Shown piece by piece: positions 23,360-30,672 of a stretch of 42,499 nt of DNA. This stretch comes from a virus. Below the pieces are notes generated by a model. That model saw nothing but the letters and a program-made list of their open reading frames with translations, did no database searches and was not told where the DNA came from. The stretch is taken from the IMG/VR virus record IMGVR_UViG_3300022745_000063, positions 1 through 42,499 of that record; one strand, given 5' to 3'. Position 1 is the first letter of the stretch, and every line of letters begins with the position of its first letter. The position numbers and the translations under genes are program-made.

Positions 23360-24298
23360 TCAATGAGTCCTTTGGTACGTCAGACGCTTGCCTTGCACGC
23401 CCTTGAGTAGCGCCTCAGCACGTTGGAAATCATCGTATCCAAGTGCTGTGCGGTGGTTATAGCGGTAGTCATACTCTGCAAGATAGCGATGCAGATGGTT
23501 TTGTCCGCAGTGCTGATAAACACCCTTCATGCCACGCTTGAAAACAGAGAAGAAACCTTCAATCGTGTTGGTATGGATCGAACGATCAACCATTGAAACA
23601 TACTCCCCTGCACCGTGGCGTGTGTAGGCGTGATCTGCGAAGTGCTGACTGACGCTGTTGTAATGGGCCGCTTCGTCAGTGAGGATTCGCGCCTCACGGC
23701 TGATATTGGCTTTCAGAATCGGAATCAGCGTCGTGGCTTTCAGGTCGTCAACAACGATAGACCGGGCCTTGCCAGTCTCACGGTCAACTAGCGACAACAC
23801 CTTATTCTTGTGGTGGTATCCACGGCCACGCTTTTCGCCTTTGGGCTTGATCGTTTTGTCGTGACCAATGAAAGTTTCGTCTACTTCGACGGAGCCACCA
23901 CCAGAGCCAAAAACATCAAACCCATCCTCACGCATGGCTTCACGAATGCGATGAGACATGAACCAAGCCGACTTCAATGTGACCCCGAGAGTGCGGGATA
24001 GTTGATTGGAGCTGATGCCCTTTTTTGATGAGGAAATCAGAAAGATCGCTTGCAGCCACAGACGCATCGGGATATGGCTGGACTCGAAAATCGTCCCCAC
24101 TTTGACGCTAAATGGTTTGCGGCATCCGTAGCACTTCCATGCGCCAACACGGGTTGACTTGCCTTGAAGTTTCCCGGCTTTGCCGATCTCGCCACAGTGA
24201 GGGCAGACAACTCCGTTGGGCCACAGACGAGTCTCGACAAACTCGTAGGCGGCTTCTTCGTTGTGGAAAAACGGCTGTGAAAGGATTGATTCGCTCAT
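23360..24298 (-). CDS. IS1595-family transposase (ISXO2-like)
   Basis: A 312-residue protein. The N-terminal zinc ribbon has Cys32, Cys35, Cys56 and Cys59 (CPHC and CYGC). The ISXO2-like DDE domain shows Asp140 (VEVDETFIGHD), Asp208 (ILTDEAAHYN) and the third-acid region NTIEGFFSVFKRG (Asn244/Glu247). Length and domains are complete, so the enzyme may be active. Start at the ATG near the right end of the element; its upstream region includes the inner end-repeat at 24312-24331. Confidence 0.95.
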   Translation of the reverse strand: MSESILSQPFFHNEEAAYEFVETRLWPNGVVCPHCGEIGKAGKLQGKSTRVGAWKCYGCRKPFSVKVGTIFESSHIPMRLWLQAIFLISSSKKGISSNQLSRTLGVTLKSAWFMSHRIREAMREDGFDVFGSGGGSVEVDETFIGHDKTIKPKGEKRGRGYHHKNKVLSLVDRETGKARSIVVDDLKATTLIPILKANISREARILTDEAAHYNSVSQHFADHAYTRHGAGEYVSMVDRSIHTNTIEGFFSVFKRGMKGVYQHCGQNHLHRYLAEYDYRYNHRTALGYDDFQRAEALLKGVQGKRLTYQRTH

Positions 24299-26137: not shown

Positions 26138-26535
26138 GCCTCACCCCCAGCGCTGGCCCATTCGTACACCTGGCGGGCTTGCAGCACGTCCACCACCTCG
26201 AGGATGCGGATGGTGCGGGCGTTTTGGCCCTCTTGGTTTGCGAGGCGCTTGGCTTCGGCCTTGGCTTGCGAGAGGTGTGTGTGCACCTTGCTGGGTGCGC
26301 GACTGCCGTCGATGCTGATCATGAATTGGCCGTACACCTCGCCGCCCAGCTTGCTGAGATGCAGGCGCTTGATGCGGGCCTCGGTGATGCGCCCTTGCAG
26401 GGCGCGCATGAGGTGGCGCTCTTCGTCGTGCTCGAAGTGGTCGGCCTCGATGATGCCTTCGATGACGCGCTGGCACTCGCCCAGCAGGGCGGCGAGCACG
26501 TCGGATTCGGCGGTGATGTGGGTGTGGAGGGTCAT
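26134..26535 (-). CDS. Conserved phage protein of unknown function
   Basis: A 133-residue, mostly helical, charged protein (ESDVLAALLGECQRVIEGII, DEERHLMRALQGRITEARIKRLHLSK). The central GGEVYGQFMISIDGS looks like a beta hairpin. It overlaps the reverse transcriptase stop by four bases and the next gene by four. The direct neighbourhood to the retroelement might mean a link, but nothing in the sequence shows it. Confidence 0.7.
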   Translation of the reverse strand: MTLHTHITAESDVLAALLGECQRVIEGIIEADHFEHDEERHLMRALQGRITEARIKRLHLSKLGGEVYGQFMISIDGSRAPSKVHTHLSQAKAEAKRLANQEGQNARTIRILEVVDVLQARQVYEWASAGGEA

Positions 26536-27890
26536 GCTGGCTTTCTGTAAATCTTGCCGATGTCACCCGCCACAGCGTGGCCACGGCGGCGCAGGATATT
26601 GGCGATGCGGGTTTGGTCGGTGTGCCCGTGGCTGGCTTGGCCGGCGAGCCCTAGGTAGCTGTTGCCAGCGGCGAAGGTGTCGGCCTCGGCCATGTGTTGC
26701 AGGCGCCGCAGGGCGGTGGTGATGGTTTTGCGCCGGATGATGCGGCGCCATGGTTTGATGATGTGGCCCACGAAGTCGATGCCACGCTCGATGGGCTGGA
26801 GGATGGTCTTGCGTGGGTTGAGGCACAGGTTCAGTGTGGCAAGCCGGGCTTCGATGTGCTCGCGCGCTTGGTTGAGCCACTGCGGGCTGTCGTGCAGCAG
26901 GACGAAATCGTCCACGTAGCGCACGTAGTGCGGGGCGCGGAGTTGGTGTTTGATGAATTGGTCCAGATCGTCGAGCAGCACGTTGGCGAAGAATTGGCTG
27001 CTGAGGTTGCCGATGGGCAGGCCGTGGTGGTCTGGCGCGTTGAACAGGCTCTTGTGCGCGGGCACGAGGGCCAGCTCGTGCCGTGTGCCGCGCACCTCGA
27101 CATCAAGGCGGGGGTCGTGCATGAGGATGGTTTCGGTTAAAGCCATCCACCACGGCTCGGTCACCTGGCGCTGTAGCTGGCCGAGCAGGATGGTTTTGTC
27201 GATGCTGACGAAGAAGTTGGCCAGGTCACACTTGAGGTAATGCGCGGGGCGGCTCCAGTTCTGGGTATGGCTGCGCACCTGGTGCTCCAGCCGCTGGGCG
27301 GCGTAGAGGGTGCCCCGGCCGGGGATGCAGGCGCAACTGTCAGCCACGAAGCGGGCATGAAACCTCGGTGCGATTTGGTTGTAGAGCAGGTGGTGGACGA
27401 TGCGGTCGCGGAATTGCGCCGCCCACACTTCGCGCGGCTTGGGGCGGGTGATGACAAAGCAGATGGAGCGTCCGGGCTGGTAGGTGCCGGATTGGAGTTC
27501 TTCATGGAGCTGGTACAGGTTGTGCTCGGCCCGCGCCTCGAAGGCTTCGGCACTGGCGCTGGTGCGCTTGGTACGTCGGCAGTCGAGGTAGGCCTGCACA
27601 AGCTGCTGGAACAGGTGTGGATCTGCGGACGGCAACAGCCGAGCCTTCGTAGCTCTTGTGGTTGTTGTTCTGGTTGCCGTTGTTGAAGTTGCAATTCCAG
27701 GCGTAGGAGGCGCACCTGTCGCGCTGATGATGCCGCCCGCCCGAAGGCCGGAGCCGATCAGGTGGGGAGCTGCACCGGACGCAGCCCGTACGGTGGCGGT
27801 GGTATCCGTGGTGTGCATGTCGGTGGCCTTTTGGGCCAGCGGCGCGACCAGATTCACTGTGCGCACGGGCATGATGGCCTTGACCTTCAT
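26532..27890 (-). CDS. Diversity-generating retroelement reverse transcriptase
   Basis: A 452-residue frame from ATG 27890, whose ATG overlaps the avd stop (ATGA). The recognisable RT domain starts near residue 90 (PHLFQQLVQAYLDCRRTK). It shows RPKPREVWAAQFRDRIVHH, the first catalytic Asp in KCDLANFF (about 222), the DGR-type IGNLSSQ motif (about 293-299) and the YVDD box (325-328). It should copy the template RNA with errors at adenines and pass the cDNA to the variable repeats. The first 85-90 residues are read through the spacer and template repeat and are Thr/Ala-rich. A non-ATG start such as TTG at 27635 would give a more usual RT length. Confidence 0.95.
   Translation of the reverse strand: MKVKAIMPVRTVNLVAPLAQKATDMHTTDTTATVRAASGAAPHLIGSGLRAGGIISATGAPPTPGIATSTTATRTTTTRATKARLLPSADPHLFQQLVQAYLDCRRTKRTSASAEAFEARAEHNLYQLHEELQSGTYQPGRSICFVITRPKPREVWAAQFRDRIVHHLLYNQIAPRFHARFVADSCACIPGRGTLYAAQRLEHQVRSHTQNWSRPAHYLKCDLANFFVSIDKTILLGQLQRQVTEPWWMALTETILMHDPRLDVEVRGTRHELALVPAHKSLFNAPDHHGLPIGNLSSQFFANVLLDDLDQFIKHQLRAPHYVRYVDDFVLLHDSPQWLNQAREHIEARLATLNLCLNPRKTILQPIERGIDFVGHIIKPWRRIIRRKTITTALRRLQHMAEADTFAAGNSYLGLAGQASHGHTDQTRIANILRRRGHAVAGDIGKIYRKPA
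27622..27712 (-). repeat. DGR template repeat (TR), 91 bp
   Basis: On the minus strand it reads as GCC TCC TAC GCC TGG AAT and continues with eight AAC codons, 27 adenines in all, ending GCC GTC CGC AGA. It aligns without gaps to 28296-28386 (91 bp) and, over 88 bp, to 28802-28889. It lies between avd and the RT domain, as in Bordetella phage BPP-1. All differences from the two variable repeats fall on its adenines. Confidence 0.97.
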
Positions 27891-28264
27891 GCTGCAGGCG
27901 CCCTGTTCGTTCGTTTGAGCCAGCCACCGGCCTGTTTGCCGACGCTCCCCAGCAGCTCGATGGAGTCTGCCCACAGCTTGGGCGAGATGTACCGGGCATC
28001 GTGGCTGACGCGCAGCAGCACTGTGATGGCGCGCTCGCGAGTGAGCAACTGCTCAATGTACCACGCCCGGGCCTCGTGCTGGCTGGCATTGGCCAAGGCC
28101 ATCAGATCGAGCATTTCGACGCAATGCTGGGTGATTTTCTCGCCCAGCGCCCGCTTGACGGTGCGCGGCATCTGGACTTGGGCCCTGATGGCCAGATCCA
28201 GCAGGCGCGCGCCGGTGCGATGAATGGGAAGTTCGGTGTGAAGTGCCACGGTGGCTGTGCTCAA
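27887..28264 (-). CDS. avd: DGR accessory variability determinant (Avd)
   Basis: A 125-residue, all-helical basic protein (GARLLDLAIRAQVQMPRTVKR, QHCVEMLDLMALANASQHEARAWYIEQLL, ERAITVLLRVSHDARYISPKLW, ELLGSVGKQAGGWLK). This is the four-helix pattern of Avd, the pentameric protein that binds the RT and template RNA. The frame starts with TTG at 28264; a GTG at 28249 is an alternative. No clear SD is present. It follows the second target gene and overlaps the RT frame start by ATGA. Confidence 0.9.
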   Translation of the reverse strand: MSTATVALHTELPIHRTGARLLDLAIRAQVQMPRTVKRALGEKITQHCVEMLDLMALANASQHEARAWYIEQLLTRERAITVLLRVSHDARYISPKLWADSIELLGSVGKQAGGWLKRTNRAPAA

Positions 28265-28267
28265 TTA

Positions 28268-28284
28268 AAGGATTGAAGGATCAA
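28268..28284 (-). repeat. 17-base sequence shared after both variable repeats
   Basis: AAGGATTGAAGGATCAA (plus strand) occurs here and at 28768-28784, overlapping the stop codons of both target genes. It is absent beside the template repeat. It may be a remnant of target-gene duplication or a site needed for retrohoming. Confidence 0.7.
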
Positions 28285-28748
28285 AGTGCTGAGACTCTGC
28301 GGACGGCAACAGCCGAGCCTTCGTAGCTCTTGTGGGTGCTGCTCTGGTAGCCGTGGCGGAAGTAGCAACCCCAGGCGTAGGAGGCGTCTTCCTTGTGTGT
28401 CTCAGATGACCAGTGCCACTCTGGCTTGAGGTGAGGTTTGCAGTTCGCGAAAAGCAGGGCCTGCTCTTGCCTGGACGGGAGTGAGCCGCCGACGCTTGCC
28501 GCCCAATCGGTTGCGTCTTGCCAGTTGAGTGCGCTGGCGGGCTGGGCGGCCATGAGCACCAGGTGGTGGGCGGTTTGTCCTTTCTCGTCCAGGATGACGC
28601 CGGCGTAGTGCTCGTCGGGTTGCAGGTTGAGCGGTGACTGTGCGTCATCGGCCTGAAACTGCGGGTTGATGGCTTTGTGCAGAGCTTCCATCACGGCGAG
28701 GGTGCGGGGTGTGAACTCAATGTCGATGGGGATGGTGATGCCGGACAT
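28281..28748 (-). CDS. DGR target protein 2, C-type-lectin-like variable protein
   Basis: A 155-residue protein from the ATG at 28748. Residues 1-60 are specific to this copy (ITIPIDIEFTPRTLAVMEALHK). The C-terminal half matches target 1: GSLPSRQEQALLFANCKPHLKPEWHWSSE, then the variable region at residues 121-151 ending KSYEGSAVAVR. Gly127, Tyr129, Arg131, His132, Tyr134, Ser136, Ser137 and Thr138 are the codons changed from the template. The DUF1566-like C-type lectin fold is inferred from the pattern. It is expected to be a binding protein with a variable surface; its ligand is unknown. Confidence 0.92.
   Translation of the reverse strand: MSGITIPIDIEFTPRTLAVMEALHKAINPQFQADDAQSPLNLQPDEHYAGVILDEKGQTAHHLVLMAAQPASALNWQDATDWAASVGGSLPSRQEQALLFANCKPHLKPEWHWSSETHKEDASYAWGCYFRHGYQSSTHKSYEGSAVAVRRVSAL
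28296..28386 (-). repeat. DGR variable repeat 2 (VR2), 91 bp
   Basis: Differs from TR (27622-27712) at ten positions, all TR adenines: AAT to GGT, AAC to TAC, AAC to CGC, AAC to CAC, AAC to TAC, AAC to AGC twice, and AAC to ACC. None of the 64 non-A positions differs. It lies at the 3' end of target gene 2, with the GC-rich GTTGCCGTCCGC as the likely initiation region. Confidence 0.97.
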
Positions 28749-28780
28749 GTTGGGCTTTCGTGAGTTGAAGGATTGAAGGA

Positions 28781-29161
28781 TCAAGCGCTGAGCGGAATCA
28801 AGCGGACGGCAACAGCCGAGCCTTCGTAGCTCTTGCGGGTGTAGTTCTGGTTGCCGTCGTAGAAGCGGCAACCCCAGGCGCAGGAGGCGTCGTACTCATC
28901 AGCAGTCCAGTGCCACTCGGGCTCCAGCTTGACCTTGATGTTGGCGAAGAGCAGGGCCGCAACGGGGCGCGTGGGGAGTTCGCCGCCTTGCTCTTTGGTC
29001 CAGGCCTTTGCGGCTGCCCAGTCGAGGTCTGTCCCATGTCCGGGAAGCAGCACAACAGCGCAATGTGTGCCGTCTGGCTTGGTGGTCAACCCGGCGAAGG
29101 TACCGCCGTCGAGCGATGCGCCCAGTGCGGGCAGGTTGGTGAGGTTGAGAGGCTGTGACAT
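28781..29161 (-). CDS. DGR target protein 1, C-type-lectin-like variable protein
   Basis: A 126-residue protein with a strong SD (AAAGGAG, five bases before ATG). It is related to target 2 over its C-terminal 75 residues: GGELPTRPVAALLFANIKVKLEPEWHW, then the variable region at about 91-120 with Cys94, Gly97, Arg99, Tyr101, Asp102, Tyr107, Thr108 and Arg109 differing from the template-encoded residues. There is no signal peptide or coiled coil. It is the first DGR gene in the leftward operon. It is a likely variable ligand-binding protein of unknown location. Confidence 0.92.
   Translation of the reverse strand: MSQPLNLTNLPALGASLDGGTFAGLTTKPDGTHCAVVLLPGHGTDLDWAAAKAWTKEQGGELPTRPVAALLFANIKVKLEPEWHWTADEYDASCAWGCRFYDGNQNYTRKSYEGSAVAVRLIPLSA
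28802..28889 (-). repeat. DGR variable repeat 1 (VR1), 88 bp
   Basis: Differs from TR at ten positions, all TR adenines: TAC to TGC, AAT to GGT, AAC to CGC, AAC to TAC, AAC to GAC, AAC to TAC, AAC to ACC and CAC to CGC. None of 63 non-A positions differs. Adenines in the 3' part (AAG AGC TAC GAA) are unchanged in both VRs. Confidence 0.97.
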
Positions 29162-30390: not shown

Positions 30391-30445
30391 GATGGCTCCT
30401 TTGGAACAGGTCTTGAACCTGCCACCCTCCCTGCCAAGAGAGGGC

Positions 30446-30517
30446 GGCAGACCGTGCAGGTTGGCAGACCGGCCAAAGGAACCGGCACACCCTTGCGGGT
30501 GTCCCGCACGGCCCGCC
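30446..30517 (-). ncRNA. C4-like antisense RNA, copy 1
   Basis: A 72-base element with a 15-bp closing stem (30503-30517 with 30446-30460) and two inner hairpins: ACACCC-GCAA-GGGTGT, and CCGG-TTCCTTTGG-CCGG. The second loop contains TCCTTTGG, exactly complementary to CCAAAGGA at the rha SD (30397-30404). This is the design of the P1 C4 RNA, which blocks antirepressor translation in trans. The second copy (41300-41371) has the same structure with compensating changes. Confidence 0.82.
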
Positions 30518-30560
30518 AAAAAGGGAGCCATGCCCCGCGCTGCATCGGGAGCAATAGAAA

Positions 30561-30588: not shown

Positions 30589-30642
30589 CGCAGCGCCTTT
30601 GGTGCCGGGCTGCCAAGCCCGCATCCCCGAAGGGACGGGCGA

Positions 30643-30672
30643 AGTGTAGCCGATGCGCTCGGGCATGGTCAA
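30643..30672 (-). promoter_or_regulatory. Promoter of the C4-rha leader, copy 1
   Basis: A -35 TTGACC (30667-30672) and -10 TACACT (30643-30648) with an 18-base spacer. The -10 region and following GCCCGTCCCTTCGGGGAT are conserved at copy 2, where the rest of the leader has diverged. It lies at the start of an in-frame extension of rha, directly after the preceding gene. Confidence 0.65.

Follow-up and report, generated by a model that had tools for sequence, protein, structure and literature searches.

The window (the whole 42,499 nt stretch of viral DNA analyzed here, IMG/VR record IMGVR_UViG_3300022745_000063) carries a complete DGR of a lambda-like siphophage, comprising an RT, Avd, one template repeat (TR), and two adjacent lectin-fold targets, the variable proteins VP1 and VP2. 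Its template RNA probably consists of the structured RNA RT-15, the TR, and a few further bases, with the TR looped by a clamp helix and the cDNA replacing the VRs of VP1 and VP2. DGRs as a kind are already known, and it is the template RNA that is new here. The components would form one minus-strand operon in the order VP1, VP2, avd, RT-15 RNA, TR, and RT (Table 1), presumably expressed as a single transcript.

Table 1. Features of the DGR in the window.
Feature	Coordinates	Strand	Basis or comment
VP1, first variable protein, 126 aa	28781-29161	-	translation; holds VR 28802-28889
VR of VP1	28802-28889	-	10 differences from TR, all at A
Tandem TTNA motif, end of VP1, TTGATCCTTCAATCCTTCAA	28765-28784	-	also spans stop codon
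VP2, second variable protein, 155 aa	28281-28748	-	AlphaFold2 model, PDB fold match
VR of VP2	28296-28386	-	10 differences from TR, all at A
Tandem TTNA motif, end of VP2, same as at VP1 end (TTGATCCTTCAATCCTTCAA)	28265-28284	-	motif scan
Avd, 120 aa	27887-28249	-	PHROG Avd, bAvd at Pfam cut-off
Outer helix P0 (tentative), 5' strand GAACAGG	27902-27908	-	window RNA minimum-energy fold
RT-15 structured RNA (Rfam RF03018), putative template RNA 5' domain	27712-27903	-	covariance model match
Clamp helix 5' strand, GAATCTG	27849-27855	-	covariation
TR	27622-27712	-	adenine-only differences to both VRs
Clamp helix 3' strand, CAGATCC, TR 3' end	27619-27625	-	covariation
Outer helix P0 (tentative), 3' strand CCTGTTC	27609-27615	-	window RNA minimum-energy fold
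RT gene, 452 aa if read from ATG overlapping avd stop	26532-27890	-	RVT_1, PHROG RT, open frame and phase

The RT matches Pfam RVT_1 (E 6e-17; 62.5 bits against a cut-off of 29.6) and the PHROG RT family (E 2e-111), and related RTs occur in 114 phage records, including five Bordetella phage records. Avd matches the PHROG family 'Avd protein of DGR' (E 3e-23) and passes the Pfam bAvd cut-off of 40 with 40.6 bits. For VP2, the mechanically called ORF at 28265-28648 was replaced by the 155-residue frame listed in Table 1. The AlphaFold2 model of this protein has a pLDDT of 92, and its best Foldseek match in the PDB is the Legionella Lcl C-terminal domain (E 1e-4), followed by many C-type lectins (E 1e-3 to 1e-2); a profile of 62 VPs matches 8q4e (E 7e-11). 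Neither VP2 (23.4 bits, E 7e-5) nor VP1 (14.2 bits, E 0.056) reaches the cut-off of 34.9 for Pfam Lcl_C (PF07603), and the model argues for a lectin fold in VP2 rather than for filing it in that family. The VRs lie at the C-terminus of proteins with a predicted C-type lectin fold, as is characteristic of DGR targets.

The initial annotation placed all 20 VR-TR differences on template adenines, and realignment of the reverse complements of the TR and VR intervals in Table 1 confirms 20 of 20. The VP1 VR differs from the TR at ten of 25 adenines and at none of the 63 other bases (88 nt aligned), and the VP2 VR at ten of 27 adenines and none of 64 other bases (91 nt aligned), reproducing the earlier counts exactly; no substitution at a TR C, G, or T was found in either VR. 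Changes from A to G, C, and T are all present, as are the double changes within codons reported before (AAT to GGT in both VRs and AAC to CGC in the VP2 VR), and the probability that ten random differences would all fall on 25 adenines of 88 is 7e-7. The two VRs differ from each other at 11 positions and have three changes in common (0-based TR indices 16, 17, and 50), so the 20 differences need not represent 20 separate events. An adenine-tolerant scan finds exactly three copies of the repeat in the whole window. Because VP1 and VP2 are adjacent paralogs, their VRs might in principle be duplicates that diverged, or were evened by gene conversion, without any retrohoming. However, the genes are only 55% identical outside the VR (149 of 270 codon-aligned nt), whereas the TR is identical to each VR at the non-adenine bases (127/127 positions), so paralogy alone does not explain why the VRs resemble each other; with every TR-VR difference at a template adenine as well, we give this explanation virtually no credence. 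The absence of non-adenine changes at 127 positions, compared with 45% divergence in the sequence immediately flanking the VR, shows that both genes received their copy of the TR after diverging from each other, and that on this scale the transfer was recent. It is in this sense, and for this one contig, that the sequence supports the earlier suggestion of recent activity on both targets, and the RT, Avd, TR, and two predicted lectin-fold targets, together with the adenine-only differences, lend weight to the signature of mutagenic retrohoming that was proposed.

The adenines in the last third of the TR had been described as untouched, and indeed no adenine 3' of TR index 53 is altered in either VR. 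In TR-VR pairs of this RT family adenines followed by G are hardly ever mutated, whatever their position, with 16 of 920 changed compared with 1921 of 3826 other adenines. Three of the six adenines at TR indices 55-66 precede G, which accounts in part for the untouched stretch, and its sparing is only partly a matter of position. Mutation that halts at a set distance from the 3' end would be consistent with the drop from 17/33 to 1/33 between adjacent codons in 33 window-like pairs. However, related TRs do mutate in this region (136 of 294 adenines lying 24-29 nt from the end are altered in 144 anchored pairs), and adenines before G are spared wherever they stand; a fixed halting distance is therefore possible but doubtful. 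In the archaeal set the protection before G is weak, with 35 of 84 such adenines changed. Over 168 TR-VR pairs from 89 loci there are 40 non-adenine and 1937 adenine mismatches, a ratio biased by the scan, which penalizes non-adenine mismatches and requires three adenine changes for each other mismatch. That adenines before G change so rarely offers a design rule for templates, and one that differs between RT clades.

Between avd and the TR lies RT-15, which matches its Rfam model at 156.9 bits (gathering cut-off 82) over model positions 1-192 of 192 and ends where the TR begins. Among 21 loci searched, eight relatives score above the cut-off, and in each of them the RT-15 end and the TR start are at most 7 nt apart. 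When loci were selected by the RNA only, an adenine-mutated repeat was found to start no more than 40 nt from the RNA end in six of seven over-cut-off RT-15 loci. The fold of RT-15, including the clamp, has changes on both sides at 41 of 64 pairs. The clamp is a 7 bp long-range helix joining the TR 3' end to RT-15 and has compensatory changes among 55 sequences (70 RNA-block matches less 13 near-copies and two without a detected TR). It is paired in 91.4% of 385 cells, of which 19 are changed on both sides versus 5.4, and its covariation score of 0.152 compares with 0.047 for shuffles, which ignore relatedness (0/500), and at most 0.093 when slid. The outer pair is GC in 39 sequences, UA in six, CG in three, UG in three, GU in two, and unpaired in two (n=55); the second is unpaired in 25 of the 55, the window included, and the fifth is C-A in two. 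The clamp is so short that it does not reach significance in single sequences (the best stem of any position has p≤0.05 in 11 of 100 loci), and covariation was used for this reason; the clamp also forms when the window RNA is folded by itself to minimum energy. A tentative outer helix, P0, is clear in the GAACAGG group, with a two-sided change to GAACAAG/CTTGTTC in loci L019 and L082, but is not general across loci (mean rank 0.76 versus 0.5 expected). A pairing of UCUGGU in RT-15 with ACCAGA inside the TR was rejected, since it forms in 91% of cells but has no both-sided change and does no better than shuffles.

Archaeal loci carrying the RT-16 RNA independently show what appears to be an RT-15-like layout with a covarying clamp. 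Of 33 RT-16 loci, chosen by RNA alone as a subset of a longer match list, 25 have an adenine-mutated TR no more than 40 nt from the RNA end, and three of the eight misses (L114, L117, and L131) are accounted for by having at most 45 nt before the RNA, leaving an upstream VR out of view. The clamp is clear in only part of these loci, reaching p≤0.05 in 14 of the 25 and p≤0.01 in eight. For the 18 of 25 loci with a TR match of at least 75 nt, the clamp scores 22.8 with a locus's own partner versus 15.0 with those of other loci, and 0/20000 permutations score as high; the controls gave 19771/20000 in the TR middle and 1456/20000 at +60 to 93. Locus L104 and relatives of its host match RT-16 (RF03019).

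An open RT frame runs through RT-15 and the TR, which together would encode RT residues 1-94, and both are in frame inside the RT gene in 30 of 30 contiguous loci of the window's clade; a less biased count, over 70 RNA-block loci, gives 51 in phase and 48 open. In 40 loci picked for an open frame, and thus biased, there are no stops in frame 0 versus 130 and 59 in the other frames. Such openness would be expected if the stretch before the TR were kept as an N-terminal protein domain of the RT and not as RNA. However, in the same 40 loci codon periodicity is absent from the stretch before the RT core (0.135, 0.186, 0.198; then 0.34, 0.336, 0.344), the RT-15 fold has compensatory pair changes, the RNA recurs in 14 relatives outside the clade, where it is out of frame or interrupted, and the RTs of L036 and L087 lack the N-terminal extension. 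A protein domain as the sole cause of conservation is already refuted, and we consider its preference over the RNA very improbable. The RT is nonetheless presumably translated through the template RNA in the window's clade.

A different arrangement, with a BPP-1-type template RNA whose working spacer lies 3' of the TR in the RT coding sequence and with RT-15 as a separate avd-RT regulatory RNA, gains some appeal from the RT directly following the TR in the window and from BPP-1, where the 3' spacer is described as recruiting RT and Avd (PMC12875486). However, no BPP-1-type structured spacer is present between TR and RT in the window, where the RT core starts near 27608, about 13 nt after the TR, and codon variation behind the TR is normal in the 40 loci picked for an open frame, with mismatches of 0.24, 0.24, and 0.43 at positions 1-3 over the first 150 nt of the RT core. 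In four loci of one clade (L033, L036, L087, and L090) the TR is parted from the RT by other sequence, with nothing shared behind it beyond the clamp, and a covarying helix ties RT-15 to the TR. We therefore regard the BPP-1-type arrangement as unlikely.

In the favored RT-15-TR template, RT-15 would fold and its strand NNAUCUG would pair with CAGAUNN at the TR 3' end, beside the RT-15 closing helix, offering the TR as a loop of about 80-90 nt with both ends held together. RT and Avd would then begin copying at the TR 3' end, making errors at adenines but hardly at those before G, and the cDNA would take the place of the VR in VP1 and VP2. The clamp probably sets the start of cDNA synthesis, and the primer nucleotide may reside in the 5' domain, in a permuted form of the BPP-1 layout. 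We rate as an even proposition the broader reading in which there are two permuted DGR template layouts. In that of BPP-1, the strand that both anchors the TR 3' end by pairing and supplies the primer would lie behind the TR, and in those of RT-15 and RT-16 it would lie in a structured domain before the TR, the loop being closed by the inner clamp and often by an outer helix. RT-15 and RT-16 would then each make up the 5' half of a DGR template RNA rather than serve as accessory RNAs, priming of the cDNA would use a nucleotide that lies upstream of the template, and in the window's clade ribosomes would also translate the template RNA as the beginning of RT.

To our knowledge, template start marking and cDNA priming in DGRs have been worked out mainly in BPP-1, via its 3' spacer, whereas the elements of a large phage group and of an archaeal group cannot accommodate a spacer of this kind or carry in its stead a 5' domain that covaries and is joined to the 3' end of the TR. 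The clamp layout would give two orphan Rfam RNAs a concrete role and makes the priming question testable by compensatory mutations, and RT-15-TR may offer a compact template RNA for directed-evolution tools. We did not find RT-15 or RT-16 named as a DGR template RNA in the literature searched, which is weak evidence of novelty as most subscription papers fell outside it.

Both BPP-1 and the window have an RT, an Avd, and a single TR, show transfer to a lectin-fold target with changes at adenines only, and share the order target-avd-TR-RT. They differ in that the BPP-1 TR begins at the avd stop and has a 144-nt spacer behind it, whereas about 190 nt of RT-15 precede the TR in the window, and in that the BPP-1 target is the tail protein Mtd, whereas the window has two small stand-alone targets. 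In BPP-1, too, the TR 3' end has a complementary strand in a structured partner; it occupies spacer positions 48-54 and immediately precedes A56, which we take to be the priming adenine. This pairing has the geometry of the clamp, but on the other side of the TR, and no counterpart of the priming adenine is evident beside the window clamp. Rfam matches to RT-15 and RT-16 stop where the TR begins, leaving TR and clamp outside the models, and the GenBank record of phage Cruim01 already gives RT-15 as a misc_RNA before its RT. Burkholderia phage Magia and Pseudomonas phages Haboob and Cruim01 encode RTs 61-63% identical to that of the window and have two VRs near a TR in our TR-VR scan, and Magia and Haboob are annotated with an Avd-like gene. 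For Magia, a possible DGR targeting genes 47 and 57 has been reported, and the available text of that description gives no TR or RNA structure (PMC7883833). DiGReF structural group 3, as far as the accessible part of its description goes, has only the annotation overlap in common with the window, its RT- and TR-RNA being supposed separate transcripts, with frame and RNA structure untested there (PMC3521204).

Efficient homing in BPP-1 is reported to need a GC-rich hairpin after the VR (PMC3240598), whereas a GC-rich 7-10 bp hairpin with a GRNA loop is absent after the window VRs, where the longest stems are 4 and 5 bp. Across all loci of the set, stems of at least 7 bp occur in 41 of 162 VR flanks, 3 of 85 TR flanks, and 3 of 300 random sequences. 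Tandem TTNA motifs such as those at the ends of VP1 and VP2 follow 111 of 160 VRs, compared with 4 of 85 TRs and 13 of 500 random 60-mers.

The window carries a diversity-generating retroelement (DGR) of a known kind. The initial annotation had read the differences between its template repeat (TR) and two variable repeats (VRs) as adenine-specific mutagenic retrohoming and this is correct: its counts are reproduced exactly, each VR having all 10 of its differences at TR adenines and none at the other TR bases (63 for one VR, 64 for the second). Ten random differences would all fall on the 25 A among 88 bases with a probability of 7e-7. The genes for the variable proteins VP1 and VP2 share only 55% nucleotide identity outside the VR, yet every non-A base is the same in the TR and each VR, and the VRs of both targets have therefore been rewritten from the TR after the genes diverged. 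A whole-window scan revealed no further TR copies beyond the TR and these two VRs.

The 190 bases from the avd stop to the TR match the structured RNA RT-15 (Rfam RF03018) at full length with 156.9 bits, and the match stops at the TR's first base. Immediately 5' of the main RT-15 closing helix is a near-invariant NNAUCUGG, and in nearly all sequences CAGAUNN runs from the last bases of the TR into those that follow; the NNAUCUGG-containing strand and CAGAUNN form a 7-bp helix (the clamp) that is 91.4% paired. When 55 different sequences are aligned, 94.5% of cells are paired in the fold that includes the clamp, 41 of 64 pairs have both-sided changes, and 274 cells are changed on both sides versus 70 in shuffles. 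Covariation in the clamp itself is 0.152, and shuffled data give 0.047. Its outer pair occurs as G-C, C-G or U-A with the partner base changing along, the second as A-U or G-C, and the invariant core has a U-A to C-G change in one sequence. The clamp lies directly against the closing helix, whose other strand adjoins the TR, and so brings the two TR ends together. The window RNA folded alone also contains the clamp, plus a further outer helix (z -2.6). Within the literature library searched, this template RNA layout is, as far as is known, undescribed.

An independent case is provided by a distant relative in a Pacearchaeota genome (L104), where an RT-16 RNA (Rfam RF03019) stands in place of RT-15. 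Loci for comparing the two were picked by RNA family alone, and 33 RT-16 loci were fetched from the L104 genome and its class, in which 41 of 188 genomes have a match. The TR starts no more than 40 nt from the end of the RNA in 25 of the 33 (most within 6 nt), and in 6 of 7 RT-15 loci above cut-off. Pairing between the start of RT-16 and the sequence at and after the TR end was scored for the 18 RT-16 loci whose TR match is long; it is far better within a locus (22.8) than between loci (15.0), a value reached in 0 of 20000 permutations, and two control stretches show no such own-locus advantage. Two unlike RNA families thus have a 5' domain and a TR-closing helix. Four RT-16 RNAs (L114-L117) are in one archaeal genome of about 0.6 Mb (G001), which suggests that this small archaeon has several DGRs.

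The reverse transcriptase (RT) frame is opened by an ATG overlapping the avd stop, and runs via RT-15 and the TR into the RT core. The RT query yielded 76 loci from viral contigs and 28 from genomes, and 35 of the 88 rows in the RT tree belong to the window's clade. Within it, all 30 loci with contiguous RNA and RT are in frame, four rows have other genes or sequence between them, and one (L030), whose locus begins close to the RT, is without the RNA block; outside it, 11 contiguous loci are in frame and 14 are not. Ten of 47 loci selected for an open frame (including L057, a near copy of L024) have no ATG, GTG or TTG after the TR start, so that, an unusual start aside, their RT must start upstream. 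The RNA-to-core distance takes 13 different values among the 41 in-frame loci. The RT-15 stretch is conserved, yet not in a codon-like way: its mismatch by codon position is 0.135, 0.186 and 0.198 in the first 90 nt, whereas codon periodicity is clear in avd before it and in the RT core behind it. The leader therefore looks less like a domain than like a functional RNA that is read through, as a tolerated or regulatory event. Annotated RT ORFs overlapping the TR are a class already listed in 2012 (PMC3521204). In two relatives, DNA methyltransferase-like genes (identified by eye; see table) lie between the TR and the RT, so that the template RNA is detached from the RT gene.

In the DGR of Bordetella phage BPP-1, the avd stop touches the TR and a 144 nt spacer extends from the TR to the RT gene brt. 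The complement of its TR 3' segment AUCACCU lies at spacer positions 48-54, immediately ahead of the priming adenine A56. Both RT and Avd are recruited by the spacer, and one of its internal adenines primes cDNA (PMC12875486). In polarity the clamp matches the BPP-1 pairing, with the partner strand facing into the TR by its 3' side, but this strand is 5' of the TR in the window and in the spacer behind the TR in BPP-1. We infer a permuted layout in which cDNA would be primed from the 5' domain; the priming step is a proposal, and no counterpart of the primer adenine is evident in the window. In BPP-1, the 3' part of avd and spacer positions 65-80 are also complementary over 16 nt, with 12 Watson-Crick pairs; this pairing spans the TR and is perhaps the counterpart of the tentative outer helix P0.

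An adenine-tolerant repeat scan, which also took in six loci from named phages, identified 168 distinct TR-VR pairs across 89 loci. Targets usually number two and adjoin avd, with a third farther off in several loci; in L010, L012, L021, L082, L083, L087 and L092 a third VR with the same TR as source lies upstream of the other two. Across the 168 pairs, adenines before G are changed in 16 of 920 cases, and other adenines in 1921 of 3826. The effect is also present at third codon positions alone (1/71 versus 23/38), and protein selection is therefore not a likely cause. It is weak in the archaeal RT-16 set (35/84 versus 359/564 changed). With the BPP-1 RT, sequence context acts mainly through the base that follows the adenine on its 3' side (PMC12875486). 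Three of the six unchanged adenines at window TR indices 55 to 66 precede G.

A tandem motif of spaced TTNA follows VRs in 111 of 160 flanks, compared with 4 of 85 TR flanks and 13 of 500 random sequences. The window VRs are not followed by a GC hairpin of the type described for BPP-1 and for DGRs of other phages (PMC3240598), and a stem of 7 or more is present in 41 of 162 VR flanks of the whole set; the TTNA motif may, as a guess, substitute for the hairpin or assist it. GC-rich hairpins that follow VRs in L016, L031, L041 and L050 have loops of three bases, whereas GRNA tetraloops are reported for BPP-1 and other phages; the loop is GCA in 16 of the 41 stems, with GAA and GTA also seen.

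The 42499-base virus contig encodes plus-strand structural genes of the lambda-like siphophage type (terminase, portal, head protease, tape measure, J-like tail protein and endolysin), and the minus strand carries, away from the tail genes, a Rha-type regulator, VP1, VP2, Avd, the template region, RT and an integrase. Both variable proteins are small and stand alone, and VP2 is confidently predicted (pLDDT 92) to have a C-type lectin fold, the nearest structure being the Legionella Lcl C-terminal domain. Domains of this type usually serve ligand or receptor binding. The Rha-type regulator region contains a C4 antisense RNA (60.5 bits, above cut-off) and a below-cut-off match to its a1/b1 targets, a predicted antirepressor arrangement under antisense control. 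The contig also contains an IS1595-type transposase.

Coordinates of additional features in the window and in related loci
Feature	Location	Strand	Match
C4 antisense RNA and a1/b1 target match	30440-30523 and 30602-30649	-	Rfam RF01695
IS1595-type transposase	23360-24298	-	DDE_Tnp_IS1595, E 6e-36
DNA methyltransferase-like gene, L036	2177-4018		
DNA methyltransferase-like gene, L087	5164-6096
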